From assembly GCF_011762125.1 (NCBI RefSeq), contig NZ_JAASQN010000009.1, positions 1 through 64,000 on the forward strand: a DNA stretch of 64,000 nt. Direction: 5' to 3'. Source of the DNA: Sphingopyxis panaciterrae (GTDB taxonomy: Bacteria; Pseudomonadota; Alphaproteobacteria; Sphingomonadales; Sphingomonadaceae). Made by a program: the position numbers and the translations under genes. Shown one piece after another: positions 47,230-64,000 of this stretch. Below the pieces are notes generated by a model. That model saw only the letters and a list, made by a program, of their open reading frames with translations. It made no database searches and was not told the DNA's origin. Each line of letters begins with the position of its first letter. Within the stretch, counting starts at the first letter, position 1.

Positions 47230-47617
47230 GTCCGGCCGTCGCAATCACAGCTCGGCGTCCCCCTTCGAACCCGTCTACGGCTATAGCCGCGCGGTCCGGG
47301 TGGGCAGCCGCATCGACGTCGCGGGTTGCGCGCCGATCGAACCCGACGGTTCGTCGACCCCCGGCGACGCCGGGGCGCAGGCGGCGCGCTGCATCGCGAT
47401 CATCGGCGAGGCGCTTGCAGCGCTCGGCGGCAGCCTTGCCGACGTCGTGCGCACCCGCATGTACATCACCGACGCGGCCGATGCCGATCTGGTCGGGCGG
47501 GCGCACGGATCGGCATTCAAAAATGTGCGTCCGGCATCGACGATGCTGGTTGTGCCGGCGCTGATCCGGCCCGAATGGAAAGTCGAAATCGAAGCCGAAG
47601 CCATTATCGAGAAATGA
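47222..47617 (+). CDS. RidA/YjgF/UK114 family protein
   Basis: A 131-residue protein of the RidA family, which hydrolyses reactive enamine/imine intermediates released by PLP enzymes. FEPVYGYSRAVRVGSRIDVAG, the central GGSLADVVRTRMYITDAADA and the C-terminal RPASTMLVVPALIRPEWKVE are characteristic; the Arg in VVRTRMY equals the substrate-carboxylate-binding Arg of active family members. It overlaps the I78 gene upstream (8 bases) and the acyl-CoA dehydrogenase downstream (4 bases). Placement in a branched-chain amino acid operon suggests a detoxifying role linked to amino acid deamination, which is inference. Confidence 0.9.
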   Translation: MAESGRRNHSSASPFEPVYGYSRAVRVGSRIDVAGCAPIEPDGSSTPGDAGAQAARCIAIIGEALAALGGSLADVVRTRMYITDAADADLVGRAHGSAFKNVRPASTMLVVPALIRPEWKVEIEAEAIIEK

Positions 47618-48765: not shown

Positions 48766-48767
48766 TG

Positions 48768-48876
48768 CTTCGAGACGCCATTTCGACGAGCTCAATGGCT
48801 CCTCAGCACAAACGGGGTTTGTGGATTGCCGCTCGTCCTGAGGAGGGACTGAGCTTGGCGAAGGCCCGTCTCGAAG
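48768..48876. repeat. Nested palindromic repeat, family C
   Basis: Outer arms CTTCGAGACG (48768-48777) and CGTCTCGAAG (48867-48876), with an inner pair CTCCTCAG (48799-48806) and CTGAGGAG (48838-48845). The element fills the whole gap between the dehydrogenase and the hydrolase. Its right arm provides the AAGGA used as the Shine-Dalgarno sequence of the next gene. This type of element with GCTCGTCCTGAGGAG is widespread in sphingomonad genomes. Confidence 0.88.
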
Positions 48877-48886
48877 GACATTGCGC

Positions 48887-49933
48887 GTGACCGACGACAT
48901 TCTGATTTCGACCGACGGCCGCATCGGCCGCCTGTCGCTCAACCGCCCGAAGGCGATCCACGCGCTGAACCTTGCGATGTGCGAGGCGATGATCGACGCG
49001 CTCGTCAAATGGCGTGACGACGATAGCGTCGACGCCGTCATCATCGACCATAGCGAAGGCCGCGGCTTCTGCGCCGGCGGCGACATCCGCATGCTCGCGG
49101 AAAGCGGCGCGAAGGACGGCAAGGAGGCGCGCGCCTTCTTCCACACCGAATATCGCCTCAACCATCTGCTCTTCACTTACCCCAAGCCCGTCGTTGCCTT
49201 CATGGACGGCATCACCATGGGCGGCGGGGTCGGCATTTCGCAGCCGGCGAAATATCGCGTCGCGACCGAGCACACCCGTTTCGCGATGCCCGAGACCGGG
49301 ATCGGCCTGTTCCCCGATGTCGGTGGCGGCTGGTATCTGCCGCGCCTCGAAGGCCGCGTCGGGGCGTATCTTGCGCTCACCGGCGCGCGGCTCGACGGCG
49401 CCGAATGCCTCGCGCTCGGCCTCGCGACCCATTATCTGCCGTCCGAACAGCTCGCCGAAGCGAAGGAACGCATCGCGCAGCATCCGGATCGCATCGGCGG
49501 TATCCTCGGCGACCTCGCGATCACCGCGCCGCCGGCCGCGATCAGCCAGCATATCGACAAGATCAACCGGCTGTTCGCGAGCGATGCCTATGAGGATATC
49601 CTCGCCGCGCTCGAAACCGACGGCGGCGACTGGGCGCAAAAGGAACTGGGCACGCTGCGCGCCAAAAGCCCGCAGACGTGCAAGGTCGCGCTCCGCCAAC
49701 TCAGGGAAGGCGGCGAGATGCACGACTTCGCCGCGCAAATGACGCAGGAATATGCGATTGGCAGCCGTGTCGTTCAGATGCACGACTTCATCGAGGGTGT
49801 CCGCGCGCTGATTATCGACAAGGACAACAGCCCGAAATGGGACCCGCCGACGCCCGAGGCGGTCACCGACGACTGGATCGACGCGATCTTCGCGCCGCTG
49901 CCCGAAGCTGAAAGATGGACGCCGCTAATCTAA
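48887..49933 (+). CDS. 3-hydroxyisobutyryl-CoA hydrolase
   Basis: A protein of about 348 residues of the crotonase fold, longer than simple hydratases, as expected for HIBCH. GRGFCAGGDIRMLAESG, the oxyanion segment DGITMGGGVGIS and FAMPETGIGLFPDVGGGWYL are diagnostic of the hydrolase rather than a hydratase. It releases CoA from 3-hydroxyisobutyryl-CoA in valine breakdown, producing the substrate of MmsB. GTG is used as start (AAGGA 8 bases upstream); an in-frame TTG at 48881 is an alternative. It follows a palindromic repeat within the operon. Confidence 0.94.
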   Translation: MTDDILISTDGRIGRLSLNRPKAIHALNLAMCEAMIDALVKWRDDDSVDAVIIDHSEGRGFCAGGDIRMLAESGAKDGKEARAFFHTEYRLNHLLFTYPKPVVAFMDGITMGGGVGISQPAKYRVATEHTRFAMPETGIGLFPDVGGGWYLPRLEGRVGAYLALTGARLDGAECLALGLATHYLPSEQLAEAKERIAQHPDRIGGILGDLAITAPPAAISQHIDKINRLFASDAYEDILAALETDGGDWAQKELGTLRAKSPQTCKVALRQLREGGEMHDFAAQMTQEYAIGSRVVQMHDFIEGVRALIIDKDNSPKWDPPTPEAVTDDWIDAIFAPLPEAERWTPLI

Positions 49934-49935
49934 GC

Positions 49936-50014
49936 TCGTCACCCCGGACTTGATCCGGGGTCCCGCTTCTTGACCCTTGCAAAGCAGGATGCCGGATCAA
50001 GTCCGGCATGACGA
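49936..50014. repeat. Palindromic intergenic repeat, family B, copy 3
   Basis: TCGTCACCCCGGACTTGATC on the left and GCCGGATCAAGTCCGGCATG on the right; the base changes in each arm are compensated within its own small palindrome. It fills the gap between the hydrolase and hydratase genes and ends 16 bases before the hydratase start. Confidence 0.88.
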
Positions 50015-50030
50015 AAAACCGGAGATACGA

Positions 50031-50813
50031 ATGACCTACGAAACCCTCCTCGTCGAACAACGCGGCGCCGTCACGCTGGTGACGCTTAACCGGCCGCAGG
50101 CGCTCAACGCGCTCAATTCGGGTGTGCTGGAAGACCTGATCGCCGCCTTTGCCGCTTTCGAAGCCGACCCCGCCCAGCGCTGCGCCGTCCTCACCGGCTC
50201 GGGCGACAAGGCCTTCGCCGCGGGTGCCGACATCAAGGAAATGGCCGACAAGCCCGCGTCTGATTTCTACCTTGAGGATTTCTTCTCGAAATGGACGAGC
50301 GACTTCGTGAAGAAAGTCCGCAAGCCGTGGATCGCCGCAGTGAACGGCTTCGCGCTCGGCGGCGGCTGCGAACTGGCGATGATGGCCGACTTCATCATTG
50401 CCAGCGACAAGGCGAAATTCGGCCAGCCCGAAATCAAGCTCGGCGTCGCCCCCGGCATGGGCGGCTCGCAGCGGCTGACCCGCGCGATCGGCAAGGCGAA
50501 GGCGATGGAAATGTGTCTGACCGGCCGGATGATGGATGGTGCCGAGGCCGAGCGGTCGGGCCTCGTCGCGCGCGTCGTCGCGCATGAAAGCCTCGTCGAT
50601 GAAGCGCTGAAGACCGCAGCCACGATCGCCAGCATGCCGCCGATGGCCGCGATGGTGAACAAGGACATGGTCAACGCCGCCTATGAAACGACGCTCGACC
50701 AGGGGCTGATCTACGAACGCCGCCTGTTCCAGATCCTCGCCGCGACCGAGGACAAGGCCGAAGGCATGGCCGCCTTCATCGAGAAACGCGAAGGCGTATG
50801 GAAGGGTCGCTGA
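50031..50813 (+). CDS. Enoyl-CoA hydratase
   Basis: A 260-residue crotonase. The sequence carries [20 protein letters not shown], the oxyanion hole parts [11 protein letters not shown] and [18 protein letters not shown], and the two catalytic glutamates in the [20 protein letters not shown] area. It is close to short-chain enoyl-CoA hydratase (EchA/ECHS1 type). In this operon it should hydrate methacrylyl-CoA to 3-hydroxyisobutyryl-CoA, and it could also serve general short-chain beta-oxidation. GGAG lies 7 bases ahead of the ATG. mmsB starts 1 base after its stop. Confidence 0.93.
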
Positions 50814-50814
50814 C

Positions 50815-51690
50815 ATGAAAATCGCATTCATCGGGCTCGGCAATATGGGCGGCGGCATGGCCGCGAACCTGGCGAAGGCGGGACATGACGTCCGCGCCTT
50901 CGACCTCAGCGAAGAGGCGCTGGCGCGCGCTGTCGAGTCGGGCTGCACCCGCGCCGCGTCGGCCGCCGAAGCGGTGAGCGGCGCCGAGGCGGTGGTGACG
51001 ATGCTCCCCGCGGGCAAGCATGTCGCCGCAGTCTATGAAGCCGACGTCTTCCCGAACGCTGCGGCGGGCACCTTGCTGCTCGATTGCTCGACGATCGACG
51101 TCGCCACCGCGCGCGCGAATATCGAAGCTGCAACCGCCAAGGGCCTCGTCGCGGTCGACGCGCCGGTCTCGGGCGGCATCGCCGCTGCCAATGCGGGCAC
51201 GCTGACCTTCATGGTCGGCGGCACCGATGACGGCTTCGCGCGCGCCGAACCGATCCTCGCCAAGATGGGCAAGGCGGTGATCCACGCCGGCGATGCGGGC
51301 GCGGGGCAGGGGGCGAAGATCTGCAACAACATGCTGCTCGGCGCCTCGATGGTCGCGACGTGCGAAACGCTTGCGCTCGCGCAGAAGCTGGGGCTCGATC
51401 CGCAGAAATTCTTCGACATCGCCTCGGTCAGCTCGGGCCAGTGCTGGTCGCTGACCAGCTATGCCCCGCTGCCCGGCGTCGGACCGGCGACCCCCGCCGA
51501 CAATGATTACAAGGGCGGTTTCGCCGCGGCGCTGATGCTCAAGGATCTGCGCCTCGCGATGGAGGCGGCGGCGAGCGTCGACGCCGATGTCCCGATGGGG
51601 TCGAAAGCGCGCGAGCTTTACGAGGCGTTTGTCGAGGCTGACAAGGACGGCCGCGACTTTTCGGCGATCATCCAGGCTTTGCAAAAATAA
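50815..51690 (+). CDS. mmsB: 3-hydroxyisobutyrate dehydrogenase
   Basis: A 291-residue beta-hydroxyacid dehydrogenase: NAD motif FIGLGNMGGGMAANLAKAGH, substrate motif VDAPVSGGIAAANAGTLTFM, the catalytic Lys in GAGQGAKICNNMLLGASMV, and the C-terminal SVDADVPMGSKARELYEAFV. It oxidises 3-hydroxyisobutyrate to methylmalonate semialdehyde, the substrate of MmsA at the other end of the operon. It is the last gene of the valine cluster. Confidence 0.95.
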   Translation: MKIAFIGLGNMGGGMAANLAKAGHDVRAFDLSEEALARAVESGCTRAASAAEAVSGAEAVVTMLPAGKHVAAVYEADVFPNAAAGTLLLDCSTIDVATARANIEAATAKGLVAVDAPVSGGIAAANAGTLTFMVGGTDDGFARAEPILAKMGKAVIHAGDAGAGQGAKICNNMLLGASMVATCETLALAQKLGLDPQKFFDIASVSSGQCWSLTSYAPLPGVGPATPADNDYKGGFAAALMLKDLRLAMEAAASVDADVPMGSKARELYEAFVEADKDGRDFSAIIQALQK

Positions 51691-51996
51691 CTGTCGCCCC
51701 CGCGAAGGCGGAGAGCGAAAGTCGGTTTTGGGGTGGTGAGCGGACATATAGCCCTCTCCCCTTTAGGGGAGAGGGTTGGGAGAGGGGGACTTCATTCCGG
51801 CCCCTCTCAACTGCGGCTAGCCAGCAAGCTGGCAAGCCTGCGTATCTCTCCCCTGAAGGGGAGAGAGCGAGCCGTGAAACGCCGATACCCGCCACTTCCC
51901 ACTTTTCGTCATCCCGGACTTGATCCGGGATCCCGCTTTTGGAGGCGCAGCAGGTCTTGAGGTCAAGCGGGACCCCGGATCAAGTCCGGGGTGACG
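51691..51996. repeat. Cluster of palindromic repeats in the mmsB downstream gap
   Basis: This gap holds no gene but four repeat elements: a half copy of family A (51691-51712, left arm only), a hairpin CCCTCTCCCCT/AGGGGAGAGGG (51752-51775), a second hairpin CTCTCCCC/GGGGAGAG (51846-51865), and a full family B copy (51906-51996). The segment 51724-51744 (GGTTTTGGGGTGGTGAGCGGA) resembles 32837-32858. The remaining bases to 52053 show nothing recognisable. The cluster could terminate the valine operon transcript, but no classical terminator with a T-run is seen. Confidence 0.85.
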
Positions 51997-52053
51997 ATGA
52001 AAGAGAAGGCGGCTACCGGCAAAAACTCGCCGTCACCTATGCATCTGAGCCAC

Positions 52054-52290
52054 TCAATAAAAATCCGCCGTCTCGCCGCCATTCTGCCGCGTCGTGCGAT
52101 GCACCTGCGTCGGCGCGTCACTTCGCCCGGTCCGCACCTCGATCCGTCCGTCCACGCGCCGCACCTCGGCGGGCGACACGATGCGCGCCCGCGCGACACC
52201 GACCGCGGTCGCCTGCGACTTTGGCGCCGGCACGGCGGCCGGGGCGCTCGCGGCGAGTAGCAAGGCGGCGGCAAAGGACATGGCGTTCAT
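52054..52290 (-). CDS. Small exported protein of unknown function
   Basis: A 78-residue open frame starting at MNAMSFAAALLLAASAPAAV, which looks like a complete signal peptide, followed by a mature part of about 55 residues rich in Arg, Val and Thr (ARARIVSPAEVRRVDGRIEV ... RTTRQNGGETADFY). Short sphingomonad proteins with an A-R-I-V-S-x-x-E/x-V start after a signal peptide are known to me only as hypotheticals. No strong ribosome binding site is present. It is downstream of, and on the same strand as, the bifunctional hydratase/dehydrogenase gene but beyond that gene's... upstream-side gap terminator lies between them only in reverse order, so it is an isolated gene. Moderate evidence only. 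Confidence 0.5.
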   Translation of the reverse strand: MNAMSFAAALLLAASAPAAVPAPKSQATAVGVARARIVSPAEVRRVDGRIEVRTGRSDAPTQVHRTTRQNGGETADFY

Positions 52291-52365
52291 GCTCTGCCGT
52301 AACGGCAGGTCCTGCCAGCGCTTTAACCCTGAATCGCAACATTTGGCAGGGTCGAAGGCCGGTTT

Positions 52366-52409
52366 CCGGCAAAAGAAAGGCCGCCTGCCCCACGCCGGGA
52401 CAGGCGGCC
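52366..52409 (-). terminator. Rho-independent terminator of the hydroxyacyl-CoA operon
   Basis: On the minus strand GGCCGCCTGTCCC and GGGGCAGGCGGCC form a long stem (52409-52379) followed by TTTCTTTTG (52378-52369). It begins 25 bases past the stop of the bifunctional gene at 52434 and should end the seven-gene minus-strand operon. Confidence 0.88.
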
Positions 52410-52433
52410 ATCTTTTCGTAAGCGAAAGGAGGC

Positions 52434-54467
52434 TTAGAAGCCGGCCTTCGCCGCCGCCTTTTCCTTGAGCAGCGGTGCGACCTCGAAACCGTGGCTTTCC
52501 AGCGCGGCGGCGATCTTGTCGGTGCCTTCCAGCCCGGCCCAGAACATCGGGCCGCCGCGATAGACCGGCCAGCCATAGCCATAGATCCACACGACATCGA
52601 TGTCGCTCGCGCGCTGCGCCTTGCCCTCGGCAAGGATCAAGGCGCCTTCGTTGACCATCGGATAGAGGGTGCGCTCGATGATCTCCTGATCGGTGATTGC
52701 GCGCTTCTCGATCCCCGCCTTCCCTCGGAATTCGTCGATGATCTCGCCGACGCGCGCGCTTTCCGACGGATTGCGCTTGTCGTCATAGTCGTAGAAGCCC
52801 GCCTGCTTCTTCTGGCCCCAGCGGCCCTCGGCGCACAGCGCGTCGCGGATGCTTTCGATCCGGTTCGGATCGCGGTGCCAGCCGATGTCGACGCCCGCGA
52901 GGTCGCTCATCTGGAACGGCCCCATCGGCATGCCGAAATCGGTGTGGACCTTGTCGACCTGCGCCGGGGTCGCGCCTTCGAGCAGCAGCTTCTGCGCTTC
53001 GATCTGACGCGGCGCGAGCATGCGGTTGCCGATGAAGCCGTGGCACACGCCCGCGACGACCGCGACCTTGCCGATCTTCTTGCCAATAGACATGGCTGTG
53101 GCGAGGACATCGTCGGCGGTCTTGTCGCCGCGCACGACCTCGAGCAGCTTCATGACGTTGGCGGGCGAGAAAAAGTGCATGCCGAGCACGTCGCCGGGGC
53201 GGCTCGTCGATGCCGCAATCTCGTTGACGTCGAGATAGCTGGTGTTCGACGCGAGGATGGCGCCGGGCTTGGCGATCTGGTCGAGCTTGCCGAAGATCTC
53301 CTTCTTGACGTCCATATTCTCATAGACCGCCTCGATGATCAGGTCGCAGTCGGCGAGCGCTTCGAGTTCGAGCGACGGGGTGATGAGCCCCATCATCTGG
53401 TCGACCTGTTCGGGCTTGAAGCGGCCCTTGGCGGCGCTGGCGTCGTAATTCTTGCGAATGACGCCCAGCCCGCGGTCGAGTGCGTCCTGCTGCATCTCAA
53501 CGATCGTGCAGCGGAACCCCTTTTGCAGGAAATTCATCATGATGCCGCCGCCCATCGTCCCGGCGCCGATGATGCCGACATGCTGGACGTCGCGCAGCTT
53601 GATGTCCTTGGGCAGGCCGTCGATCTTCGCGGCCTGGCGCTCGGCGAAGAAGATATGGCGCTGCGCGGCCGACTGGCTGCCGAACATCAGCTTGGTGAAT
53701 TCCTCGCGCTCGAAGGCGAGGCCCTCGTCGAACGGCAGGCGCGTCGCCGCCTCGACGCAGGCGAGGTTCGCATAAGGCGCGTCGAAACCGCGCCAGCGCT
53801 TGGCATTGGCGGTCTTGAGTTGCTCGATCACCGCGACGTCGCCGAACACCGCGCGTTCGCGCGTCGGGCGCGGGCCGTCGGCGATCTTGGTGCGGGCAAA
53901 GGCGATGGCATCGGCGGCCAGGCTGTCCTCGCCGGCGAGGGCATCGACAAGGCCGAGCTCCTTCGCCTTGGCGGCGGGCAGCGGTTCGCCGAGCGAGGTC
54001 ATCGTCGCCGCGGCCTCGACCCCGACGACGCGCGGCAGGCGCTGGGTGCCGCCGGCGCCCGGCAGCAGGCCGAGCTTGACCTCGGGCACGCCGAGCTTCG
54101 CCGAGGGGACGGCGACGCGGTAATGGCAGACGAGCGCGGTTTCGAGCCCGCCGCCGAGCGCCGTGCCGTGGATCGCGGCGACCACCGGCTTGGTCGCGGC
54201 TTCGATGCTGTTCAGCACCGCGTTGAAATCGGGACCGCGCGGCGCCTTGCCGAACTCGCTGATGTCGGCGCCCGCAATGAAGGTGCTGCCGTCGCAGCGC
54301 AGCACGATCGCCTTGACGCTATCGTCGGCCAGCGCCGCGGCGAAATGGTCGGCGAGGCCCTGGCGGACGTGCCAGCTCAGCGCGTTGACCGGCGGGTTGT
54401 TGACGATGACGACGGCGACCTCGCCATCCTTTTCCATCGTAACGCTGACGGGGGTTTCTTCGGACAT
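52434..54467 (-). CDS. Bifunctional enoyl-CoA hydratase / 3-hydroxyacyl-CoA dehydrogenase
   Basis: A 677-residue multifunctional enzyme. The crotonase domain is at residues 1-190 ([48 protein letters not shown]). The NAD-binding hydroxyacyl-CoA dehydrogenase domain starts at about 297 ([20 protein letters not shown]) and includes [15 protein letters not shown] and [17 protein letters not shown], followed by two C-terminal helical domains. It resembles FadJ and peroxisomal MFE1 more than FadB and lacks an isomerase-specific extension. It is the last gene of the operon that starts at 60760; the product needs a thiolase from elsewhere. It is 23 bases downstream of the serine hydrolase gene. Confidence 0.93.
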
Positions 54468-54490
54468 GGGAGACTCCTTGGTTCTAACAG

Positions 54491-55693
54491 TCAGTCATCG
54501 ATCGCGGCGTGGACGAGCGTCTTGACCTCGCGCCGCACGGGATAGGTGGAGGAGGGCATGAGCTGGGTCATGAAGACCATGCAGATTTCCTCGACCGGAT
54601 CGACGAAGAAGCCGGTCGAAAACATGCCGCCCCAGTAAAAATCGCCCGCCGAGCCCGGAATACCCGCCGCCGCCGGGTCGAGCGTGACCGCGAAGCCGAG
54701 CCCGAAGCCGACCCCGGCATTCTCGTCCTCGCTGAAGATGCCGACGCTATGCTGGGTCAGGTCGCCGCCGCCGGCGAGATGGTTCGACGTCATCAGGTCG
54801 AGCGTCTTGCGGCTGACGATCCGCACATCGCCCAGCTTGCCGCCGCCGAGCAGCATCAGGCAGAAGCGGTGATAATCATCGAGCGTCGAGGCGAGCCCGC
54901 CGCCCCCCGAATGGAAGCTGCGGTCTTTTGCCCAGCGGCTGCGCGCGCCGCCGTCGAAACCCTGCATCTTGTCCTTCGGGTGAAAGGCATAGGCGTCGGT
55001 CAGCCGGTGCTGCTGGCCGGCCGGGACCTGGAATCCGGTGTCGACCATGCCAAGCGGCGCGAAGATGCGCTCGTGCAGCACCTCTCCGAACGGCTTGCCC
55101 TCGATCCGCTCGATCACCGCGCCGAGCACATCGGTCGCCATCGAATAGTTCCAGTGCGCGCCGGGATCGAACTGCAGCGGGATTTTCGCGAGGTCGGCGA
55201 TGAAGCTGTCCATCGTGTAATCGGCGTCGAAATCGTCGATGCGTGCCTTGCGATAGGCGGCGTCGACCGGGGTGCGCTCCTGAAAGCCATAGGTCAGCCC
55301 GGCGGTGTGGCGCAGCAGGTCGACCATCAGGATCGGCCGCGCCGGCGGGCGCGTCAGGAACGGCACATTGCCGCCGCCCGCGACGAAGACGCCGGTGTCC
55401 CTGAATTCGGGGCAGAACTTCACCAGCGGGTCGGACAGCGCGACCTTGCCCTCCTCTACCAGCATCATGAAGGCGATGCTGGTGATCGGCTTGGTCATGC
55501 TGGCGATGCGGAAGATCGCATCATCCTTCAGCGGCTCGCCCGGCCGCGCTTCGCCGATGCACGAGCGGTGCGCGATCTCGCCGCGCCGCGACACCAAAGT
55601 CGCCGCGTGCGGCAAGCGGCCGGTATCGACATATTTGGTGGCGAGAAAGGCGGGGATGCGGCCCAGCCGCGCGGTGTCGAATCCATGGGTCAT
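54491..55693 (-). CDS. Beta-lactamase-fold serine hydrolase (class C / EstB-like)
   Basis: A 400-residue serine hydrolase of the penicillin-binding-protein / class C beta-lactamase fold. The nucleophile motif S-x-x-K is SMTK at residues 65-68 ([20 protein letters not shown]), the Tyr motif lies in [17 protein letters not shown], and a [15 protein letters not shown] segment occupies the usual position of the late structural motif. No signal peptide is visible, so it is probably cytoplasmic and an esterase, lactonase or amidase rather than a beta-lactamase. Its place in an acyl-CoA operon with a 4-hydroxyacyl kinase-like protein makes a lactone or hydroxy-ester hydrolase attractive, which is inference. 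Confidence 0.87.
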
Positions 55694-55706
55694 GCGCGCA
55701 GGCCTA

Positions 55707-56513
55707 TCAGTGCGAGGTCTGGCCGAGCAACTGGCGTGTCACCGGGTGCGAACTGGTCAGCCCGCCATCGACCGCGATCGCCTGTCCGTTGACATAGCTC
55801 GCCTGATCGCTCGCCAGGAACAGCGCGACGTTCGCCAGTTCCTCGGGCTGTGCCGCGCGGCGCAGCGGGTTCAATTGGCCGAGCTTGTGCGTGACCTCTT
55901 TCGCTTTCGCATAGTCGAAGGTCGGTTTGGTCATGCCGGTTTCGGTCAGCCCGGGGCACACCGCGTTCACCCGCACGCCGCTCGTCGACAGCTGCTGCGC
56001 GGCGACCTTGGCAAGGTTGATCACCCCCGCCTTCGACGCCGAATAGGCGCCGGGGCCGGCGCCCGAATTGATCCCCGCGACGCTCGCGGTCAGCACGATC
56101 GCGCCGCCGCGCCCCTGATCGACCATTGCCTTGCCCGCATGCTTCACCATCAGCGCCGGGCCGATCAGGTTGACGCGCAAAGTCTCGGCCCAGGCGGCGG
56201 GATCGAAATCGAAGATGCCGCCCATGTCGCCGATGATCCCGGCGTTGGCGAAGGCGACATCGAGCGCGCCATAAGTGTCTTTGGCGGCCGCGACGAGGCT
56301 CGCGACGTCGGCTTCGATGCCTGCGTCGATTTCGAACGCGACGGCCTCGCCACCGGCATCTTTCACCAGCTGCGCGGTCTCATGCACCGCCGGGGTCTTG
56401 TCGCCGAGCACCAGCTTCGCCCCCTCGGCGGCGAAGCGCAGCGCGCTGGCGCGGCCGATGCCCGATCCGGCGCCGGTGATGATCGCGACCTTGCCGTCCA
56501 ATGCTCCGCTCAT
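55707..56513 (-). CDS. Short-chain dehydrogenase/reductase 1 of the acyl-CoA operon
   Basis: A 268-residue classical [24 protein letters not shown] at the end of the fourth strand, the Ser in [13 protein letters not shown], and AYSASKAGV with catalytic Tyr and Lys. The start MSGALDGKV forms an ATGA overlap with the preceding SDR gene; the longer open frame lies inside that gene. Likely oxidises or reduces a hydroxyacyl-CoA or alcohol intermediate. The end of the protein ([20 protein letters not shown]) shows no targeting signal. Confidence 0.9.
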
Positions 56514-57271
56514 ACCACCACACCTCCATCGAGAACCATTGTCTGCCCGGTCATGAAACTCGACGCTTCCGAGCCCAGATACACCGCCGCGCCCGCGATC
56601 TCGCGCGGCTCGCCGATGCGGCCGAGGCAGGCATTCGAGGTCGAGGCTTTCAGATTTTCGGGATTTTCCCACAACGCCTTGGCGAAATCGGTCTTTACCA
56701 GCCCCGGCGCGATCGCGTTGATCCGGATGTTCGATGGCCCGAACTCGCGCGCAAGATTTTTGACCATCTGGATATCGGCGGCCTTGGTGATCGCGTAAGT
56801 GCCGATGATCGCGGTCCCGCGCAGGCCGCCGATCGACGAAACAAGGATGATCGACCCCGCCTTGCGCTCGCGCATGCCCGGCACGACCATCGTGATCAGC
56901 CAGTGCTGCGCGACGATATTATGGTCGAGCGTCTTGCGCAGCGCTTCGTCGCTGATCGTTTCCATCGGGCCGTAGTGCGGGTTCGATGCGGCGTTGCAGA
57001 CGAGGATATCGATCCGACCGAAGGCGGCGCGCCCGGCGTCGACCATGGCCTGCAGCGATTCCTTCGACGACAGGCTCGACGATACCGCAATCGCATGGCC
57101 GGGATGCTTGGCGTTGATCGCCGCGGCGATCTCTTCGCACGGTTCCAGATTGCGGCTGGTGATCACGACCTTCGCGCCATGATCGGCATATTCCTCGGCG
57201 ATCGCGCGCCCGATGCCGCGCGACGACCCGGTGATGATCGCGACCTTGCCGCTGAGGTCGAACAGGCTCAT
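56510..57271 (-). CDS. Short-chain dehydrogenase/reductase 2 of the acyl-CoA operon
   Basis: A 253-residue classical SDR: TGSSRGIGRAIAEEY, CNAAS in place of the NNAG motif, ILVSSIGG and TYAITKAAD with catalytic Tyr-Lys. It resembles the DHRS4/YhdF-like and LvaD-like group. The LvaD protein of the levulinate pathway, which acts after the kinase/dehydrogenase steps, is of similar type, but SDR substrate cannot be read from sequence. Overlaps the kinase-like gene upstream and the first SDR downstream, each by 4 bases. Confidence 0.9.
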   Translation of the reverse strand: MSLFDLSGKVAIITGSSRGIGRAIAEEYADHGAKVVITSRNLEPCEEIAAAINAKHPGHAIAVSSSLSSKESLQAMVDAGRAAFGRIDILVCNAASNPHYGPMETISDEALRKTLDHNIVAQHWLITMVVPGMRERKAGSIILVSSIGGLRGTAIIGTYAITKAADIQMVKNLAREFGPSNIRINAIAPGLVKTDFAKALWENPENLKASTSNACLGRIGEPREIAGAAVYLGSEASSFMTGQTMVLDGGVVV

Positions 57272-58335
57272 GCCCCGGCTTTCTTCGCGAAGTCCCATGC
57301 CGTTTCGGCGAGCGGGCGGACGCGTTCGGACATGTCCTTCGCATGCTGGGACGAGGCGGTTCCCTCGATCACCCGCTTCTTGATGCCCTGGATGATGCCC
57401 GCGAGGCGGAAGAAATTATAGGCGAAATACCAGTTCATGTCGGGCACGCCGTCACGGCCGGTGGCGGCGCAATAGCGGGTGACCACCTCGTCGAGCTCCG
57501 GAATGCCGAGCGCCTTGCGGTCGAGATCGGCGACGCCCGACCGCCCGCCATTATCGGTCACCCAGGCCATCGCGACATAGGTGAAATCGGCGAGCGGATC
57601 GCCGAGGGTCGACAGCTCCCAGTCGAGCACCGCGAGCACTTCGGGCCGATCCCTGGCAAAGATCATATTGTCGATGCGGTAATCGCCATGGACGACGCTG
57701 GTGCGCGTCTGCTCGGGCAGGGTCGCGGGCAGCCAGGCGATCAGCCGCTCCATCTCGTCCATCGTTTCGGTTTCGGAGAGCCGGTACTGCTTCGTCCAGC
57801 GATCGACCTGGCGGCCGAAATAATTGCCGGGCTTGCCGAAATCCGCAAGCCCCGCCGCCTCGACATCGACGCTGTGGAGCGCCGCGAGCGTGTCGATCAT
57901 CGCCTCATAAGTGGCGCGGCGGTTTTCGGGGGTCGATCCCGGCATCGCGCCGTCCCAGATCGTCTGGCCGTCGACCATGCCCATCACATAGAACCAGCTG
58001 CCGACGACGCTGTCGTCGGTGCACAGGCCATATTGGCGCGCCACGGGAAAGCCCGCCTTATGAAGTCCCGCCTGCACCTTATATTCGCGATCGACCGCAT
58101 GCGCCGATGGCAGCAATTGGCCAAAAGGCTTGCGGCGGAGCACATAATTGCCCGACTGCGCCGCGATCTTGTACGTCGGGTTCGACTGGCCGCCGGCAAA
58201 TTTGCCCTGCGTCAGCGGCCCTTCGAAACCTTCGACATGGGCTTCCATCCATTGGGTCAGCTTTGCTTCGTCAAGGATGTCGGCGCCTTCGGGGGCGACG
58301 GTGCCGCTGAAGGCCTTTTGTGCATCTAATGTCAT
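57268..58335 (-). CDS. ACAD10/11-type phosphotransferase (4-hydroxyacyl-CoA kinase-like)
   Basis: A 355-residue aminoglycoside-phosphotransferase-fold kinase. GGQSNPTYKI near the N-terminus, LRRKPFGQLLPSAHAVDREY, the catalytic loop HGDYRIDNMIF (H-x-D-x4-N) and the metal-binding VLDWELSTLGDPLADF are present. These phrases match the N-terminal kinase half of vertebrate ACAD10/ACAD11 closely, and the group also contains LvaA of bacterial levulinate degradation. Such kinases phosphorylate the 4-hydroxyl of 4-hydroxyacyl-CoA so that a partner acyl-CoA dehydrogenase can eliminate phosphate. The partner is the first gene of this operon (59471-60760). Overlaps the alcohol dehydrogenase gene by 4 bases. 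Confidence 0.9.
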   Translation of the reverse strand: MTLDAQKAFSGTVAPEGADILDEAKLTQWMEAHVEGFEGPLTQGKFAGGQSNPTYKIAAQSGNYVLRRKPFGQLLPSAHAVDREYKVQAGLHKAGFPVARQYGLCTDDSVVGSWFYVMGMVDGQTIWDGAMPGSTPENRRATYEAMIDTLAALHSVDVEAAGLADFGKPGNYFGRQVDRWTKQYRLSETETMDEMERLIAWLPATLPEQTRTSVVHGDYRIDNMIFARDRPEVLAVLDWELSTLGDPLADFTYVAMAWVTDNGGRSGVADLDRKALGIPELDEVVTRYCAATGRDGVPDMNWYFAYNFFRLAGIIQGIKKRVIEGTASSQHAKDMSERVRPLAETAWDFAKKAGA

Positions 58336-59423
58336 TGGCCGAATACGATCACCGACCGTGCGGCGTCGCCCTTTTTCATGCGGTCGAAACCGTCGTTGAT
58401 CTTTTCGAGCGGGATCGTCTCGGCGACGATCGAGTCGAGGTCGAGCAGTCCGCGCAGGTAGAAATCGACGAGGCGCGGGATATCGACGGGGAAGCGGTTG
58501 CCGCCCATGATCGCGCCCTGCAATTTCTTGCCCGAAAGCAGGTCCATCGCGCTGAGCCCGACCTTTTCCGACAGCGGCATCATGCCGAGGATCGTCGCGG
58601 TGCCGCCGCGGCGCAGCGAGGCGACCGCGAGGCTCGCCGAAGCCGGACGCCCGACCGCCTCGATCGCATGATCGACGCCGCCCTTGGTCAACTCCAGAAT
58701 CTGCTTTGCGGCATCATCGGCAAGCGCGTCGACCACATCGGTCGCGCCGAGCTTTACCGCCAGTGCGCGCTTTTCGGCAACCGGGTCGGCGGCGATGATG
58801 CGGCCCGCGCCGGCGATCTTCGCGGCGTTGATCGTCGCGAGACCCACACCGCCGCAGCCGACGACCGCGACGGTCTCGCCCGGGGTCAGCTTGCATGCGT
58901 TGAAGATCGTCCCCGCGCCCGTCGTCACCGCGCAGCCGATCACCGCGGCGCGGTCGAGCGGCATGTCGGGATCGATGCGCACGCAGGCATGTTCGTGGAC
59001 CAGCATCGTCTCGGCAAAGGCGCTGAGGTTCAGCATCTGGTTGACGATGCTGCCGTCGGGGCGGGTGATCCGCGGCGGCTGGCCCGGTGCGCGGCGCGTG
59101 TCGCCGCCCATGCACAGCGACATGCGGCCGCTGACGCAAAATTCGCAGTGGCCGCAAAAGGCGCTGAGGCAGGTGACGACCGCATCGCCGACCTTCACCG
59201 TGCGCACTTCGCTGCCGACCGCCTCGACGATGCCCGCGGCTTCATGGCCGGGGATCGCGGGCAGGGGGTGCGGATAGGCGCCGTCGATGAAGTGCAGGTC
59301 CGAATGGCAGAGCCCGCACGCGGCGGTGCGGATGCGCACCTCGTGCGGGCCGCAGTCGGCGATCTGGACGGTCTCGATCGACAGCGGCTGGCCCGGCTCG
59401 ATCAGGATGGCGGCTTTGGTCAT
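58332..59423 (-). CDS. Zinc-dependent alcohol dehydrogenase (class III-like)
   Basis: A 363-residue medium-chain dehydrogenase. The catalytic zinc ligand Cys is in AACGLCHSDLHF, the GHEAAGIVEAVG motif follows, the structural zinc Cys cluster is CGHCEFCVSGRMSLC, and the NAD motif is VVGCGGVGLATINA. It is like the mycobacterial AdhD and the S-(hydroxymethyl)mycothiol/glutathione dehydrogenase group in overall layout, but the context suggests oxidation of a hydroxylated acid or alcohol. It lies between the acyl-CoA dehydrogenase and the kinase of the ACAD10/11-like pair. Confidence 0.91.
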   Translation of the reverse strand: MTKAAILIEPGQPLSIETVQIADCGPHEVRIRTAACGLCHSDLHFIDGAYPHPLPAIPGHEAAGIVEAVGSEVRTVKVGDAVVTCLSAFCGHCEFCVSGRMSLCMGGDTRRAPGQPPRITRPDGSIVNQMLNLSAFAETMLVHEHACVRIDPDMPLDRAAVIGCAVTTGAGTIFNACKLTPGETVAVVGCGGVGLATINAAKIAGAGRIIAADPVAEKRALAVKLGATDVVDALADDAAKQILELTKGGVDHAIEAVGRPASASLAVASLRRGGTATILGMMPLSEKVGLSAMDLLSGKKLQGAIMGGNRFPVDIPRLVDFYLRGLLDLDSIVAETIPLEKINDGFDRMKKGDAARSVIVFGQ

Positions 59424-59441
59424 CTAAGGCTCCGTTCTGTC

Positions 59442-59463
59442 CCCCTCCCGCAAGCGGGAGGGG
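59442..59463. repeat. Short perfect hairpin inside the acyl-CoA operon
   Basis: CCCCTCCCGC and GCGGGAGGGG with an AA loop, in the 47-base gap between the acyl-CoA dehydrogenase and the alcohol dehydrogenase genes. It resembles the element at 54-74. Without a T-run it is more likely an mRNA stability or processing element than a terminator. Confidence 0.75.
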
Positions 59464-59470
59464 AGAAAGC

Positions 59471-60760
59471 TTACCGCGAGGCGCCGATGTCGCCCGACGA
59501 AAAGCCCGGCTCGGCGGCATCGCTGTGCTTGGCGAATTCGATGCGCGCGATCGCACGTTCGTGGACTTCGTCGGGACCGTCGGCCAGACGCAGGGTGCGT
59601 TGATGGGCATAAGCCTTGGCCAGCCCGAAATCCTCGGACACGCCCGCGCCGCCATGCGCCTGGATCGCATCGTCGATGATCTGCAAGGCCATGTTCGGCG
59701 CCTGCACCTTGATCATCGCGATTTCCGCCGCTGCCGACTTGTTGCCGACCTTGTCCATCATGTCGGCGGCCTTGAGGCAGAGCAGGCGCGTCATCTCGAT
59801 GTCGATGCGCGCGCGCGCCAGGCGATGTTCCCAGATGCTGTATTCGGCAACCTTGCGGCCGAAGGCGACGCGCGACTGCAGCCGCTTCGCCATCTTCGAA
59901 ATCGCTTCTTCGGCGACGCCGATCGTACGCATGCAGTGATGGATGCGGCCCGGGCCGAGGCGCCCCTGCGCGATTTCGAAACCGCGGCCCTCGCCGAGCA
60001 GCATCGCGTCCTCGGCGTTGACGCGGACGTCCTTCAGCTCGATTTCCATATGGCCGTGCGGCGCATCGTCATAGCCGAAGACGGGCAGGTGGCGCAGGAT
60101 GTTCACGCCGGGGGCGTTCAGCGGCATCAATACCATCGACTGCTGCGCGTGGCGCTTGGCGGCAAAGTCGGTCTTGCCCATGACGATCGCGACTTCGCAG
60201 CGCGGATCGCCCGCACCCGACGACCACCATTTGGTGCCGTTGATCACATAATCGTCGCCGTCGCGTTCGATCCGCGTCTCGATATTCGTCGCGTCGGACG
60301 AGGCGACCGCGGGCTCGGTCATCAGGAAGGCCGAACGGATCTGGCCGTTCATCAGGCGGCCGAGATATTTTTCCTTCTGCTTGGCCGTTCCGTAACGGTG
60401 AAATACTTCCATATTGCCGGTGTCGGGCGCCGAGCAGTTGAACACTTCGCTGGCAAAGCCGACGCGGCCCATTTCCTCGGCGCACAGCGCATATTCAAGG
60501 TTGGTGAGGCCGGGGCCTTCGAATTCGAACGTCTCGTCGACATGATGATGCGCGCCCGACCTGGGCGGCATGAACAGGTTCCAGATGCCGGCTTCTTTCG
60601 CTTCAGCCTTCAGATCCTCGACGATCTGGATCACCTTCCAGCGCTCGCCGGCCTTGTCCTGCTTGTCATAGGTGGGGACGGCGGGGCGAACCTTGCGCTC
60701 GATGAAATCGCGCACCCGATCGCGCCAATAGACCTGCCGGTCGGTGAGGTCGAAATCCAT
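59471..60760 (-). CDS. ACAD10/11-type acyl-CoA dehydrogenase
   Basis: A 429-residue FAD acyl-CoA dehydrogenase with the markers of the ACAD10/ACAD11 C-terminal half: [51 protein letters not shown] and [20 protein letters not shown]. These enzymes act with an APH-fold kinase (here at 57268-58335) on 4-phospho-acyl-CoAs. The start [10 protein letters not shown] has a strong GGGAAGGA Shine-Dalgarno sequence, and an exact TTTACGT palindrome ends 16 bases upstream. It is the first gene of the seven-gene minus-strand operon. The same protein could also serve as an ordinary long-chain acyl-CoA dehydrogenase. Confidence 0.93.
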
Positions 60761-60775
60761 CTTCGCATCCTTCCC

Positions 60776-60791
60776 TTTACGTTCACGTAAA
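60776..60791. promoter_or_regulatory. LiuR-like (MerR family) operator ahead of the acyl-CoA operon
   Basis: TTTACGTTCACGTAAA, a perfect 7-base inverted repeat with a 2-base centre. It resembles the TTTACGT-N2-ACGTAAA sites that, as I recall, MerR-family LiuR-type regulators use for branched-chain amino acid and fatty acid genes. It lies between the preceding gene and the ribosome binding site of the acyl-CoA dehydrogenase. A variant copy is at 63299-63314. No MerR-type gene is in the window. Confidence 0.7.
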
Positions 60792-60869
60792 CCATTGGAC
60801 CGATTCGCCGGGCTTGCCAAGTCCCGCGGTCCGAAAATTACATCATCGCGCCGCACGGCGACATGATCG

Positions 60870-62333
60870 TTACGGATGCGGCCTCGCCGTCTCGGCAGCG
60901 ACCGCTGCCATCGCCGCGATGCGCGCCTCATGATCCGACCGCGAAATCGGGAAGCGGGCGATGAACGCGACGCTGGCCAGCGAAAAACCGACCAGGATGA
61001 GCAGATAATAGATGGCGAAATCGTTGAGGATCGTCTGGCCGATCATACCCGGCTGCGCCTGCGCCGGGATGCCGGCGGCGCTGATGATCACCCCGGTCAG
61101 GAACAGCCCGATCCCGGTCGCGCATTTCTGGATGAAGAAATAGGCCGAGAAGAACAGCCCTTCGGACCGCTCGCCGGTCTGTTCCTGCGACGCTTCGATG
61201 ATGTCGGCGGCCATCGATTGTCCCAGCATCATCGATGCGACGGCGCAGGCGTTGGACAGGGTGACGAGAGTGAACAGCGCGGGGATCAGTGCCGGATCAT
61301 GATTGGCGGGAAAGGCGCCGACATATCGCAACGCATAGGGGGCGACCGCGAGCAGCAGCGCGGCGATGCCGGCACCGACCGCCCCGGTCCGCTTTTCGAT
61401 CCGCTTTTGCAGCAATCCGACGATCAGGAACGCGCCGACGACGCCGATGAACAGGGTCACCGAATAAGCGAGGAAGCCCGCCTGCGGCATCTCCCAATAA
61501 TAGCTCAGCATGTACGTCGTTGCCGAAAAGGTCATGCCCTGGTTCACATAGGCGAACAGCGAACTGGCGAGCAGGATCAGGAAGGCGCGGTTGCCCAGCG
61601 TCCGGCCGATCTTGCGCAACGTCTCGCCCAGCGGCAGGTGCGTCGGGGGGCTGCTGTCCAGCCGCGCGATGCGGCGATGCGTGGTGATCGCCGAAACGCT
61701 CGTCGCGACGATCATCAGCGCGGCGCCGGTCCAGCCGTAAAGCTGGTAACCATCGACGTTGAGCTGGCCGACCGGATATTTGTCCGACGGCACCAGATAC
61801 ACCGCGAACGCCAGCGTCAGCATCAACAGACCGCCTGCCCAGCCGAACATAAAGCGCCAGCGGGTCAGCGACGTGCGATCATCATAGTCGCTGGTCAACC
61901 CGGGGACGACCGACAGCGCCGGTATTTCATAACAGGATACCGCGGCGCGCATCAGGAAGGCGAACAGGAGCAGATAGCCATAGAGCCAGCCCGACGCGGC
62001 GGCGGGCGGGTGCCACAGCATCATCCAGGCGGCCGCCATCGGCAGGATCGACGCGTACATCCACGGATGGCGCTTGCCCCAGCGGCTGTGCGTCTTGTCG
62101 CCCCAATAGCCGACCAGCGGGTCGACGATCGCATCGAGCAGCAGCGCGATCAGCAGGATGAAGCCGACGATCCTGGCGTCGAGCCCCAGCACCTGATTAT
62201 AGAACAGCATCAACAGCGTCGCGAAACCATTGTCCTTGACGCCGTACGCCACCGACCCGAAGCCGTTGCCCAGCTTGATATGCAGCGGCAGTTTTTCCGT
62301 CGGCGGCAGCGGCGCCGCGCTCGCCGCACTCAC
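60870..62333 (-). CDS. GPH-family (MelB-like) sodium/sugar symporter
   Basis: A 487-residue transporter with 12 predicted helices. [49 protein letters not shown] (split over two parts of the first loop) and the RTSLTRWRF segment identify the glycoside-pentoside-hexuronide:cation symporter family. Neighbours are SDR and acyl-CoA genes and not sugar genes, so a carboxylate or lipid-derived solute is as likely as a glycoside. It starts in a 4-base overlap with the SDR gene upstream, and the two form a short minus-strand unit. Confidence 0.9.
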
Positions 62334-63187
62334 GCGTCGGTTCCGGCCTTGGCCGCCTCCTCCATCTGGGTGAGCGCGTCGAACAGCCCGGGCGCCTCGG
62401 GATCCCAGGCGTGGCGCTGGCCGATCGTCAGCCCGCCATCGACCAGCATGTGCGTGCCGGTCATGAACGAGCTTTCCTCGCTCGCCAGATAAGCGACGGC
62501 ATTGGCGATATCATCGGGCTGGCCGCCGCGCGCGACGGGCTGCGCCGCCTCGCTCATCCCGGCGATGATCGCCTTGGCCATATCCTTGCTCGCGTCGGGC
62601 ACGTCGAGCGACGAGGTGAAGATATTGGTGTTGATAAAGCCCGGGCAGATCGCGTTGACCCGGATGCCATAGCGCGCCAGATCGGTCGCCGCGACTTTCG
62701 ACAGGTGCAAAACACCCGCCTTCGCCACCGCATAGGCGATCGGCGAATAGCCCGCGCCGAGTGCCGCGACGCTCGCGGTGTTGACGATGCTGGCGCCCTT
62801 CCGCCCCTTCATGTGCGGCGCGGCGTAACGGATGCCCATCGCGACGGACTTGAGCACCAGGTCCATCGTCCGGTCCCAGCCTTCGGGGCTGATCTCGTCG
62901 ATCGGGGCCCGGTCGCCGCCCGCGGCGGCATTGTTGAAGACGATGTCGATGCCGCCGGCTTTCGCCGCCGCCTCGTTCATCAGCGCCTCGATATCGGACG
63001 GCTTGGTGACATCGCAGCGGACGAAGTCGATCTTGCCGTTCGATGCTGCGGCGAGCGCTTGTCCGCCGGCCTCGTCGATGTCGGCGGCGAAGACATGCGC
63101 GCCCTCGCTCGCGAGTTTCAATACCGTGGCTTTGCCGATGCCTGACGCCGCACCCGTGACGACCGCTACCTTGCCTGCGAATCGCAT
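62330..63187 (-). CDS. Short-chain dehydrogenase/reductase
   Basis: A 285-residue classical SDR: VTGAASGIGKATVLKL, FNNAAAGGDRAP, IVNTASVAALGAG and AYAVAKAGVLHL with catalytic Tyr and Lys, ending with an extra tail of about 30 residues (HAWDPEAPGLFDALTQMEEA). It has similarity in layout to 3-oxoacyl-reductase and steroid/bile-acid-type SDRs. It is divergent from the acyl-CoA dehydrogenase at 63362. The start MRFAGKV fits the family; the long open frame upstream crosses a promoter region and is rejected. Confidence 0.89.
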   Translation of the reverse strand: MRFAGKVAVVTGAASGIGKATVLKLASEGAHVFAADIDEAGGQALAAASNGKIDFVRCDVTKPSDIEALMNEAAAKAGGIDIVFNNAAAGGDRAPIDEISPEGWDRTMDLVLKSVAMGIRYAAPHMKGRKGASIVNTASVAALGAGYSPIAYAVAKAGVLHLSKVAATDLARYGIRVNAICPGFINTNIFTSSLDVPDASKDMAKAIIAGMSEAAQPVARGGQPDDIANAVAYLASEESSFMTGTHMLVDGGLTIGQRHAWDPEAPGLFDALTQMEEAAKAGTDA

Positions 63188-63298
63188 TGACCCATTCTCC
63201 CGTTTTCTTTTGCCACTTAGCTTAGGCGCCAAAGGAGACGCGTCAACGCCGGTCAAACGGACGCTACGGCGCCGTAACGGCAGGTGCGCCCGGCCAAG

Positions 63299-63314
63299 TT
63301 GACGCTTGCGTAAA
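63299..63314. promoter_or_regulatory. Second LiuR-like operator, divergent SDR / acyl-CoA dehydrogenase promoter region
   Basis: TTGACGCTTGCGTAAA fits TTKACGY-N2-RCGTAAA and so resembles the perfect palindrome at 60776-60791. It lies 47 bases before the start of the acyl-CoA dehydrogenase gene and 111 bases from the start of the divergent SDR gene, so it could control both. Confidence 0.55.
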
Positions 63315-63361
63315 GTAGCGAACCGGACGTAGATTTGCACAAAGGAAGAGGAGCCGAGAGG

Positions 63362-64000
63362 ATGAGCGAACTGGACGCTTTCCGCACCGAGGTGCGCGAA
63401 TGGCTGGAGGCGAACTGCCCCGCCGAGATGCGTGAGCCCGTGCGTGATGAGGGCGACGTCTGCTGGGGCGGGCGCAACTTCAAGTTCAAGAATGACGCCC
63501 AGAAACGATGGCTCGAAGCCTGTGTTGCCAAGGGCTATACCGTCCCCGACTGGCCCAGGCCTTATGGCGGCGCCGGGCTGACGGCGGAGCAGACCAAGGT
63601 TTTCAAACAGGAAATGAAGCGCATCCATGCGCGCTCGCCGCTCGACAGCTTCGGCATCTGGATGCTCGGCCCCGCGCTGCTGCAATTCGGCACCGAGGAG
63701 CAGAAGGTCCACTATCTGAACCCGATTGCACGCGGCGAAATCCGCTGGTGCCAGGGCTATTCGGAACCCGGCTCGGGCAGCGACCTCGTCAGTCTGCAGA
63801 CCTTCGGCGAAGACAAGGGCGATCATTGGGTCGTCAACGGCTCGAAGATCTGGACGAGCTACGCCGACAAGGCCGACTGGATCTTCTGCCTCGTCCGCAC
63901 CGACAAGACGAACAAATATCAGGGCATCACCTTCATGCTCTTCGACATGGCGAGCAAGGGCGTCACGACCAAGCCGATCCTGCTGATCAGCGGCAACTCG
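63362..64000 (+). CDS. Acyl-CoA dehydrogenase, N-terminal part (cut by the window end)
   Basis: The first 213 codons of an acyl-CoA dehydrogenase run to the end of the window without a stop. The FAD/substrate part is visible: PDWPRPYGGAGLTAEQTKVF, QGYSEPGSGSDLVSLQTFGE and NGSKIWTSYADKADWIFCLV. It belongs to the FadE-like group seen in steroid and long-chain pathways (W-C-Q-G-Y-S-E-P-x-x-G-S-D-L). GAGAGGATG places a good ribosome binding site just before the ATG. It starts a plus-strand unit that continues outside the window. Confidence 0.92.
   Translation, partial: MSELDAFRTEVREWLEANCPAEMREPVRDEGDVCWGGRNFKFKNDAQKRWLEACVAKGYTVPDWPRPYGGAGLTAEQTKVFKQEMKRIHARSPLDSFGIWMLGPALLQFGTEEQKVHYLNPIARGEIRWCQGYSEPGSGSDLVSLQTFGEDKGDHWVVNGSKIWTSYADKADWIFCLVRTDKTNKYQGITFMLFDMASKGVTTKPILLISGNS

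Follow-up and report, generated by a model that had tools for sequence, protein, structure and literature searches.

What a kinase-like gene and an acyl-CoA dehydrogenase (ACAD) gene do together in one gene row is the question raised by a locus of Sphingopyxis panaciterrae, which we analysed within a stretch of 64,000 nucleotides (nt) (positions 1 to 64,000 of contig NZ_JAASQN010000009.1, assembly GCF_011762125.1; hereafter 'the window'). The original prediction, made from the sequence letters, had read the two proteins as a bacterial version of vertebrate ACAD10/ACAD11 split over two genes, and had also tied them to LvaA and LvaC, the kinase and the ACAD of the Pseudomonas lva operon. ACAD10 and ACAD11 have been described as a 4-hydroxyacyl-CoA kinase combined with a phosphate eliminase (PMC12440821, PMC11342911), a function assigned only in 2024–2025. 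As judged by identity, catalytic residues and phylogenetic trees, the two proteins form a bacterial split ACAD10/11-type pair, much as predicted, with beta-oxidation genes as neighbours, and we consider it likely that the locus constitutes a 4-hydroxyacyl-CoA salvage module linked to beta-oxidation.

Both open reading frames (ORFs) lie on the minus strand at the positions originally predicted and contain all five quoted sequence phrases: the gene of the predicted 4-hydroxyacyl-CoA kinase (355 amino acids, aa) at 57268–58335, and that of the predicted 4-phosphoacyl-CoA eliminase (the ACAD, 429 aa) at 59471–60760. The kinase has an APH fold (PF01636, 5.8e-51) and matches the solved structures 3dxp (6.6e-116) and mouse ACAD11 (1.8e-71); the ACAD matches the N-terminal, middle and C-terminal acyl-CoA dehydrogenase domains of Pfam and, best among solved structures, human and mouse ACAD11 (2wbi/8v3u, ~1e-125). 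By these scores the structure matches are far above chance level. The kinase is 38% and the ACAD 53% identical to mouse ACAD11, and the kinase is 51% identical to 3dxp. In the description of the mouse enzyme, R626, H634 and R637 of the dehydrogenase bind the phosphate of the reaction intermediate, R631 also being named and D753 acting as the base; the catalytic residues of the kinase are D220 and N225, and its contacts to CoA are R176 and R86 (PMC12440821). Aligned to ACAD11, the window ACAD keeps the equivalents of R626, R631, H634, R637 and D753, and the window kinase those of D220, N225 and R176. Among 37 unique ACADs examined from the same genome (one 212-aa piece of an already counted gene being excluded), 33 lack the full ACAD residue set; the four that carry it are the window gene, the ACADs of two further kinase–ACAD pairs on contigs C2 and C1, and an LvaC-like gene on C1. 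The single fused polypeptide that is a trait of ACAD10/11 was not found: the two ORFs are separate, with an alcohol dehydrogenase (ADH) gene between them, and we therefore speak of a 'split ACAD10/11-type pair' and not of ACAD11, the label resting on comparison with the ACAD11 sequence.

Phylogeny, which the original prediction had named as a way to refute it, places both proteins with ACAD11 and LvaA/LvaC separately. In the ACAD tree (37 rows), the window ACAD and mammalian ACAD11 share a 24-row clade (100/99), with the C1 copy next to it (99/96) and the LvaC types beside (97/95). In the kinase tree (39 rows), the window kinase and mouse ACAD11 share a 22-row clade (93/99), and mouse ACAD11 sits within a five-row set of bacterial kinases (100/97). 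The LvaA types and the C3 kinases come together (99/95) inside an 11-row set (95/96) that also takes in 9o56 and the C1 kinase. Unresolved branches outside the 22-row clade are those of the C2 kinase and of three rows from the family. The C1 pair is split between the two sides, its kinase lying with LvaA whereas its ACAD adjoins the ACAD11 clade. Both trees are midpoint-rooted, and their clades are hence splits; both contain long branches, and in the ACAD tree long-branch joins are possible outside the clade that contains ACAD11.

The same comparison bears on the alternative of a role in levulinate-type (lva) catabolism, as known from Pseudomonas. The LvaA/LvaC references were taken from four loci (L232–L235) assigned by gene order and not by name: a gene of ~650 aa divergent from kinase, DUF6285, ACAD, short-chain dehydrogenase/reductase (SDR) and AMP-ligase genes. 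In L232–L234 this row is followed by two genes of ~77–107 and 531–552 aa, while L235 stops at the contig end; the regulator and the two final genes were recognised solely from their length and position, and the equation of LvaB with DUF6285 rests on gene order in these loci. Six other candidate loci (L118–L123) did not show this order. An lva-type role would predict the same two enzyme activities, and the three SDRs of the window cluster (SDR1–SDR3) are 31–35% identical to LvaD-type SDRs, which is roughly as near as other SDRs are. However, the window kinase is 24–27% identical to LvaA-type kinases and the window ACAD 30–32% to LvaC-type ACADs, the LvaA and LvaC types branch off separately, and the genome possesses a separate LvaC-like ACAD on C1 that is 54–55% identical to the LvaC types. 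Furthermore, we found no DUF6285 (LvaB) protein among those of the cluster, the DUF6285 matches of this genome lying on C3, and no counterparts of the acyl-CoA synthetase LvaE or the regulator LvaR among the cluster genes. An lva-type role is thus extremely unlikely, and identity with the lva operon was rejected on gene content and trees. Taken together, the identities and trees point to ACAD10/11 as the nearest known kind, with LvaA/LvaC as a separate branch of what would be the same chemistry; the predicted tie to ACAD10/11 stood, and LvaA/LvaC as nearest relatives did not. The LvaC-like ACAD on C1 (near 1511075; L238:5737–6909) carries the full phosphate-pocket signature and lies in an ACAD-rich region, with the nearest kinase match on C1 ~16 kb off.

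The pair is real, conserved and widespread in bacteria. The kinase was detected at E ≤1e-90 in 118 of 149 family genomes, and in a 200-genome sample of the phylum the kinase (at 1e-60) was present in 40 and the ACAD (at 1e-100) in 50, the S. panaciterrae genome being counted each time. Without it, 38 genomes of the phylum sample hold both proteins, within 10 kb of each other in 25; half of the close pairs (13/26) are separated by <200 nt and the others by 0.9–2.2 kb, irrespective of strand. The S. panaciterrae genome itself has a paralogous row on C2 (C2:900000–919999, L013) in the order ACAD–kinase–SDR–FadB–thiolase, with identities to the window of 68% (ACAD), 59% (kinase), 62% (SDR1) and 61% (FadB), and without the esterase or the operator described below. 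Two kinase–ACAD rows also lie on C3 (L015, L016); one has a DUF6285 gene, and in the other the kinase ORF itself contains a DUF6285 match. Because their ACADs have Glu as the base and lack the phosphate-pocket set, the C3 rows probably carry out a different reaction.

The split pair belongs to a row of nine genes on the minus strand (52434–63187): SDR3, an MFS_2 transporter, the ACAD, a Zn-dependent ADH, the kinase, SDR1, SDR2, a family VIII esterase and a FadB/MFE1-type enzyme. The original prediction had set the locus at 57268–60760; the esterase (54491–55693) and the FadB-type enzyme (52434–54467), which it had counted in, lie beyond that interval, and the cluster extends further to the transporter, SDR3 and a divergent two-subunit ACAD pair. 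The FadB/MFE1-type enoyl-CoA hydratase/3-hydroxyacyl-CoA dehydrogenase (677 aa; ECH_1, 3HCDH_N and 3HCDH domains; GGGLE, VPEVKLG and HFFSP motifs) matches 6ium at 1.3e-191 and is, by match scores, nearer to the peroxisomal bifunctional enzyme (6e-136) than to the mitochondrial trifunctional alpha subunit (1.5e-89). The ADH (58332–59423, 363 aa) is a medium-chain enzyme with ADH_N/ADH_zinc_N domains, zinc-site motifs and matches to class I-type ADH chains (best 2.5e-76). SDR1 (56510–57271, 253 aa), SDR2 (55707–56513, 268 aa) and SDR3 (62330–63187) all match PF13561, SDR1 having been scanned with the longer start at 57298 and SDR3 from 63130. The most likely start of SDR1 is the ATG at 57271, overlapping the kinase stop; the mechanical ORF begins at 57298, and the codon model of the gene caller was trained on sequence including an out-of-frame SDR1 stretch. 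The transporter (60870–62333, GTG start) is of the MFS_2 (GPH) type (PF13347, 1.2e-100). On the plus strand, ACADx starts at 63362, divergent from the cluster, and runs beyond the window (63362–64000 within it); ACADy and a further SDR (SDRz) then follow outside. No acyl-CoA ligase, CoA-transferase or thiolase was found by Pfam among the nine cluster proteins.

As for the predicted single overlapping operon, 4-nt overlaps indeed join ADH to kinase, kinase to SDR1, SDR1 to SDR2 and SDR3 to transporter, but gaps of 47, 13 and 23 nt separate ACAD from ADH, SDR2 from esterase and esterase from FadB. Since the 109-nt gap between transporter and ACAD contains a perfect palindrome, the ACAD may begin its own transcript; a promoter scan returned 2 sites (1.7 expected), both away from the ACAD start. 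A terminator-like hairpin of 14 pairs follows FadB (52379–52409, minus strand), although the scan of this region gave 11 terminator-like sites against 7.3 in shuffles and only the 14-pair length singles this one out. The Rfam scan of 49000–64000 yielded no RNA element at gathering score, and the tRNA scan of the window no tRNA. Between ACAD and ADH lies a hairpin, CTCCCGCTTGCGGGAG (59445–59460), which is the sole place in the window matching at ≤2 mismatches. Adjoining the cluster on the other strand (47614–51690) are genes for an ACAD, a 3-hydroxyisobutyrate dehydrogenase and, as judged by eye, two crotonase-type proteins (valine-type degradation), with no copy of the palindromic operator.

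How fixed is this neighbourhood? Neighbours were counted at best-match identity cut-offs of 35% in the tally of family loci, 45% (transporter 35%) in that of named-genome loci and 50% for the gene directly beside the kinase. In 40 family loci spread over the identity range, the kinase has near it an ACAD in 32, an ADH in 31, ACADx in 33, the esterase in 14 and FadB in 16. A second set comprised the best 80 of 154 named-genome loci by kinase likeness (L216 being skipped in the neighbour tally), and its counts describe near relatives. Kinases of its Sphingopyxis-titled loci are 89–95% identical to the window kinase, with two exceptions at 82–84%. In the 51 of these loci with full flanks, ACAD, ADH, transporter, ACADx, ACADy and SDRz are each present in all 51, followed by SDR3 (43), esterase (38), SDR2 (37), the SDR1 type (36) and FadB (32); the 29 full-flank Sphingopyxis-titled loci have the esterase in 29 and FadB in 28. 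An SDR1-type gene stands directly beside the kinase in 17/51 loci (50% cut-off). At the SDR1 place two SDR1 types alternate, the type of the window occurring in few loci and that of the C2 cluster in more. The transporter place varies too: its occupant is 94–95% identical in two Sphingopyxis loci, 71–76% in some and <50% in most, and there are sometimes two transporters in a row.

The palindrome before the ACAD provides a first clue to the physiological role of the locus. The perfect palindrome TTTACGTGAACGTAAA (60776–60791, 0 mismatches), the predicted operator of an ACAD-to-FadB transcript, sits 15 nt upstream of the ACAD start, and a variant, TTTACGCAAGCGTCAA, with 3 mismatches to it, lies in the divergent intergenic region (63299–63314). 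Two matches at ≤3 mismatches in the window compare with 0.23 expected, a number equalled in 2/100 shuffles. The 80 named loci (1.45 Mb) contain 43 sites at ≤2 mismatches. The site is found at the ACAD start in 40 of the 72 loci with a called ACAD, that is in 35/36 of the Sphingopyxis-titled and 5/36 of the other loci, and the variant TTTACGC-n2-GCGTCAA in the divergent region in 31/35 and 6/33, respectively. The other loci have a different palindrome, TTAA-n-CG-n2-CG-n-TTAA, before the ACAD (19/36) and in the divergent region (15/33), while about a third of the loci not titled Sphingopyxis show neither. Because both palindrome positions change together between lineages, this pattern suggests one regulator for the ACAD unit and the divergent unit. 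Across the S. panaciterrae genome there are 8 places at ≤2 mismatches (reversed control, 0), all ≤50 nt from a called ORF start: the window site, C2:378331, C1:1600789, C3:254509, C11:6192, C1:1293416, C4:288372 and C4:293208. Five of the 8 precede genes of beta-oxidation type, namely the window ACAD, an enoyl-CoA hydratase gene, a MerR-family gene followed by a 600-aa ACAD, etfB–etfA and an ACAD–thiolase–SDR row. A Sphingopyxis beta-oxidation regulon that includes the cluster, etfBA, the ACAD–thiolase and enoyl-CoA hydratase genes and the MerR gene is therefore probable, and its regulator would probably be of the MerR family. The LiuR motif resembles TTTACGT-n2-ACGTAAA. As in the LiuR (MerR family) regulons of Proteobacteria, a MerR-family gene stands beside an ACAD gene with a palindrome upstream; unlike here, the reports on LiuR concern the use of branched-chain amino acids (PMC3223726, PMC5343134).

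The steps of kinase, ACAD and FadB in the following route are inferred from homology with enzymes that have been assayed. The kinase would phosphorylate the 4-hydroxyl of a 4-hydroxyacyl-CoA at the expense of ATP; the ACAD, using FAD, would remove the phosphate to give a 2-enoyl-CoA with no net oxidation; and the FadB/MFE1-type enzyme would hydrate and then oxidise this product. CoA activation and thiolysis would be supplied by genes elsewhere, and the palindrome before the ACAD would tie the locus into a regulon, probably MerR-family-regulated, with etfBA and other beta-oxidation genes. What the SDRs, the ADH, the transporter and the esterase contribute is guesswork: at least one SDR, together with the ADH, probably converts 4-oxo and 4-hydroxy groups into each other or adjusts the stereochemistry, and the esterase may release the acid from an ester. 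The ACAD10 kinase is reported to prefer the R form (PMC11342911), and a stereochemistry-correcting oxidation–reduction is therefore one plausible role for the SDRs and ADH.

The divergent genes raise the question of substrate. It is possible, though on balance rather unlikely, that the pair is tailored to a substrate that bears a ring or is branched, such as a terpenoid or steroid-like acid, whose hydroxyacyl-CoA would be dehydrated via phosphorylation; the divergent ACAD pair and the SDRs would then be the main pathway, with the kinase and ACAD stripping one hydroxyl en route. This is compatible with the salvage module that we favour and differs from it in substrate. ACADx finds its best match in Tcur3483 (6wy9, 3.4e-40), ACADy matches the partner Tcur3481 (6wy8, 3.9e-37), and each also matches one of the two subunits of 4x28; we take all of these to be steroid side-chain ACADs. 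Such a resemblance to two-subunit enzymes, the retention of all three divergent genes in every full-flank named locus and the presence of three SDRs, which would suit ring hydroxyls, are consistent with a ring substrate. However, ACADy has as its top row 4kto, an entry with the name isovaleryl-CoA dehydrogenase (3.8e-37), which ties with Tcur3481, and the NCBIfam models that come nearest are pimeloyl-CoA dehydrogenase subunits, far under their cut-offs. Moreover, through its operator the cluster falls into one set with etfBA, ACAD, thiolase and enoyl-CoA hydratase genes, which has the look of general fatty-acid oxidation, and the pocket residues are those of ACAD11, which was tested on linear substrates.

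The original prediction had gone further and proposed a dedicated pathway for lactones or 4-hydroxy acids in which the serine hydrolase opens gamma-lactones. The hydrolase has the features of a family VIII (beta-lactamase-fold) esterase: PF00144 at 5.1e-62, a match to esterase 7pp3 at 7.7e-108, the S-x-x-K nucleophile motif (S-M-T-K), the catalytic Tyr (NYS) and W-x-G (WGG). Its place in the same gene row in all full-flank Sphingopyxis-titled loci is what such a pathway would lead one to expect, and esterase orthologues (E <1e-100) in 64 other family genomes, all 64 of which have a kinase copy, lie within 10 kb of that copy in 16, with under one expected by simple arithmetic (20 kb in ~3 Mb). 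Proximity of esterase and kinase thus exceeds chance but holds in a minority of genomes, the remaining 48/64 orthologues being >10 kb away or on another contig. Likewise, 13/22 full-flank loci not titled Sphingopyxis have no esterase near the kinase, yet keep ACAD, ADH and kinase. The paper on EH7 (7PP3), the nearest solved relative, reports 66 esters, and 'lacton' is absent from its main text (PMC9795927). With the esterase from a promiscuous ester-hydrolase family and neither a CoA ligase nor a CoA-transferase in the cluster, we found no support for a lactonase, and a dedicated lactone pathway seems very unlikely.

Returning to the 4-hydroxyacyl-CoA salvage module, several observations weigh against it. 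The kinase is just 38% identical to ACAD11, and sequence of this likeness leaves the position of the hydroxyl and the chain length unfixed. R86, the CoA contact beside the alpha-C glutamate, could not be placed: a DRE triplet aligns between window and mouse, yet at position 86 of the numbering used the mouse kinase has F and the window kinase Y. The accompanying genes, namely three SDRs, an ADH and two more ACADs, would suit many substrates. Kinase and ACAD are not within 10 kb in 13 of the 38 phylum-sample genomes with both, and 11 genomes have the ACAD but no kinase above the cut-off. As for the regulon, three of the 8 sites, before a saccharopine-dehydrogenase-like gene and two ORFs on C4, show no tie to beta-oxidation here, the MerR gene is tied to the sites solely by the one that precedes it, and no operator was found before the C2 paralogous pair.

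With the ACAD10/11 function so recently assigned, this chemistry can be approached conveniently in a bacterial version that is widespread, simple in its genetics and constant in its neighbours. We tentatively extend the reading, as a conjecture that we hold with some reserve, to a fixed, co-regulated 4-hydroxy-lipid module across Sphingomonadaceae, in which the split pair, the EHHADH/MFE1-like enzyme and the divergent ACAD pair would share paired operators, and in which a MerR-type regulator of Sphingopyxis would join them to etfBA and general beta-oxidation. If true, bacteria would have their own equivalent of the peroxisomal route of ACAD11 and bifunctional enzyme, with 4-hydroxy acids handled as ordinary fatty-acid food rather than as a special substrate.

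How, then, does the locus compare with known systems? Among the open-licence papers listed by our searches, judged by titles and abstract openings, we found none on this gene cluster. Split pairs as such are already known and assayed: in Burkholderia pseudomallei a separate kinase and ACAD, likened here by description and from another organism, are each reported to replace one ACAD10 domain in vitro (PMC11342911). Our additions are the control site and a divergent unit that is conserved. The kinase match 3dxp, which the PDB lists as 'putative acyl-CoA dehydrogenase', falls in the same clade as the window kinase. The esterase shares the S-x-x-K, tyrosine and W-G-G motifs with EH7, which is, however, described as a broad ester hydrolase of metagenome origin (PMC9795927). 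With mammalian ACAD11 and ACAD10 (8V3U/8V3V, 2WBI; ACAD11 compared), the window pair has in common the sequence of both halves, the phosphate-pocket and catalytic residues and a clade in both trees; unlike ACAD11, it consists of two genes with an ADH between them and is accompanied by SDRs, an esterase, an MFE1-type enzyme and a transporter. The Pseudomonas LvaA/LvaB/LvaC system is similar in that a kinase is followed by a phosphate-eliminating ACAD with the same R/R/H/R/D set, and it differs in its 24–32% identity, its separate branches and its LvaB, LvaE and LvaR; homologues of lvaABCD are cited in Alpha-, Beta- and Gammaproteobacteria, with lvaA lacking lvaB in P. citronellolis (PMC6692424). 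ACAD10/11-type pairs and LvaA/LvaC, which the cited papers treat together where they discuss them, are here set apart as two branches.

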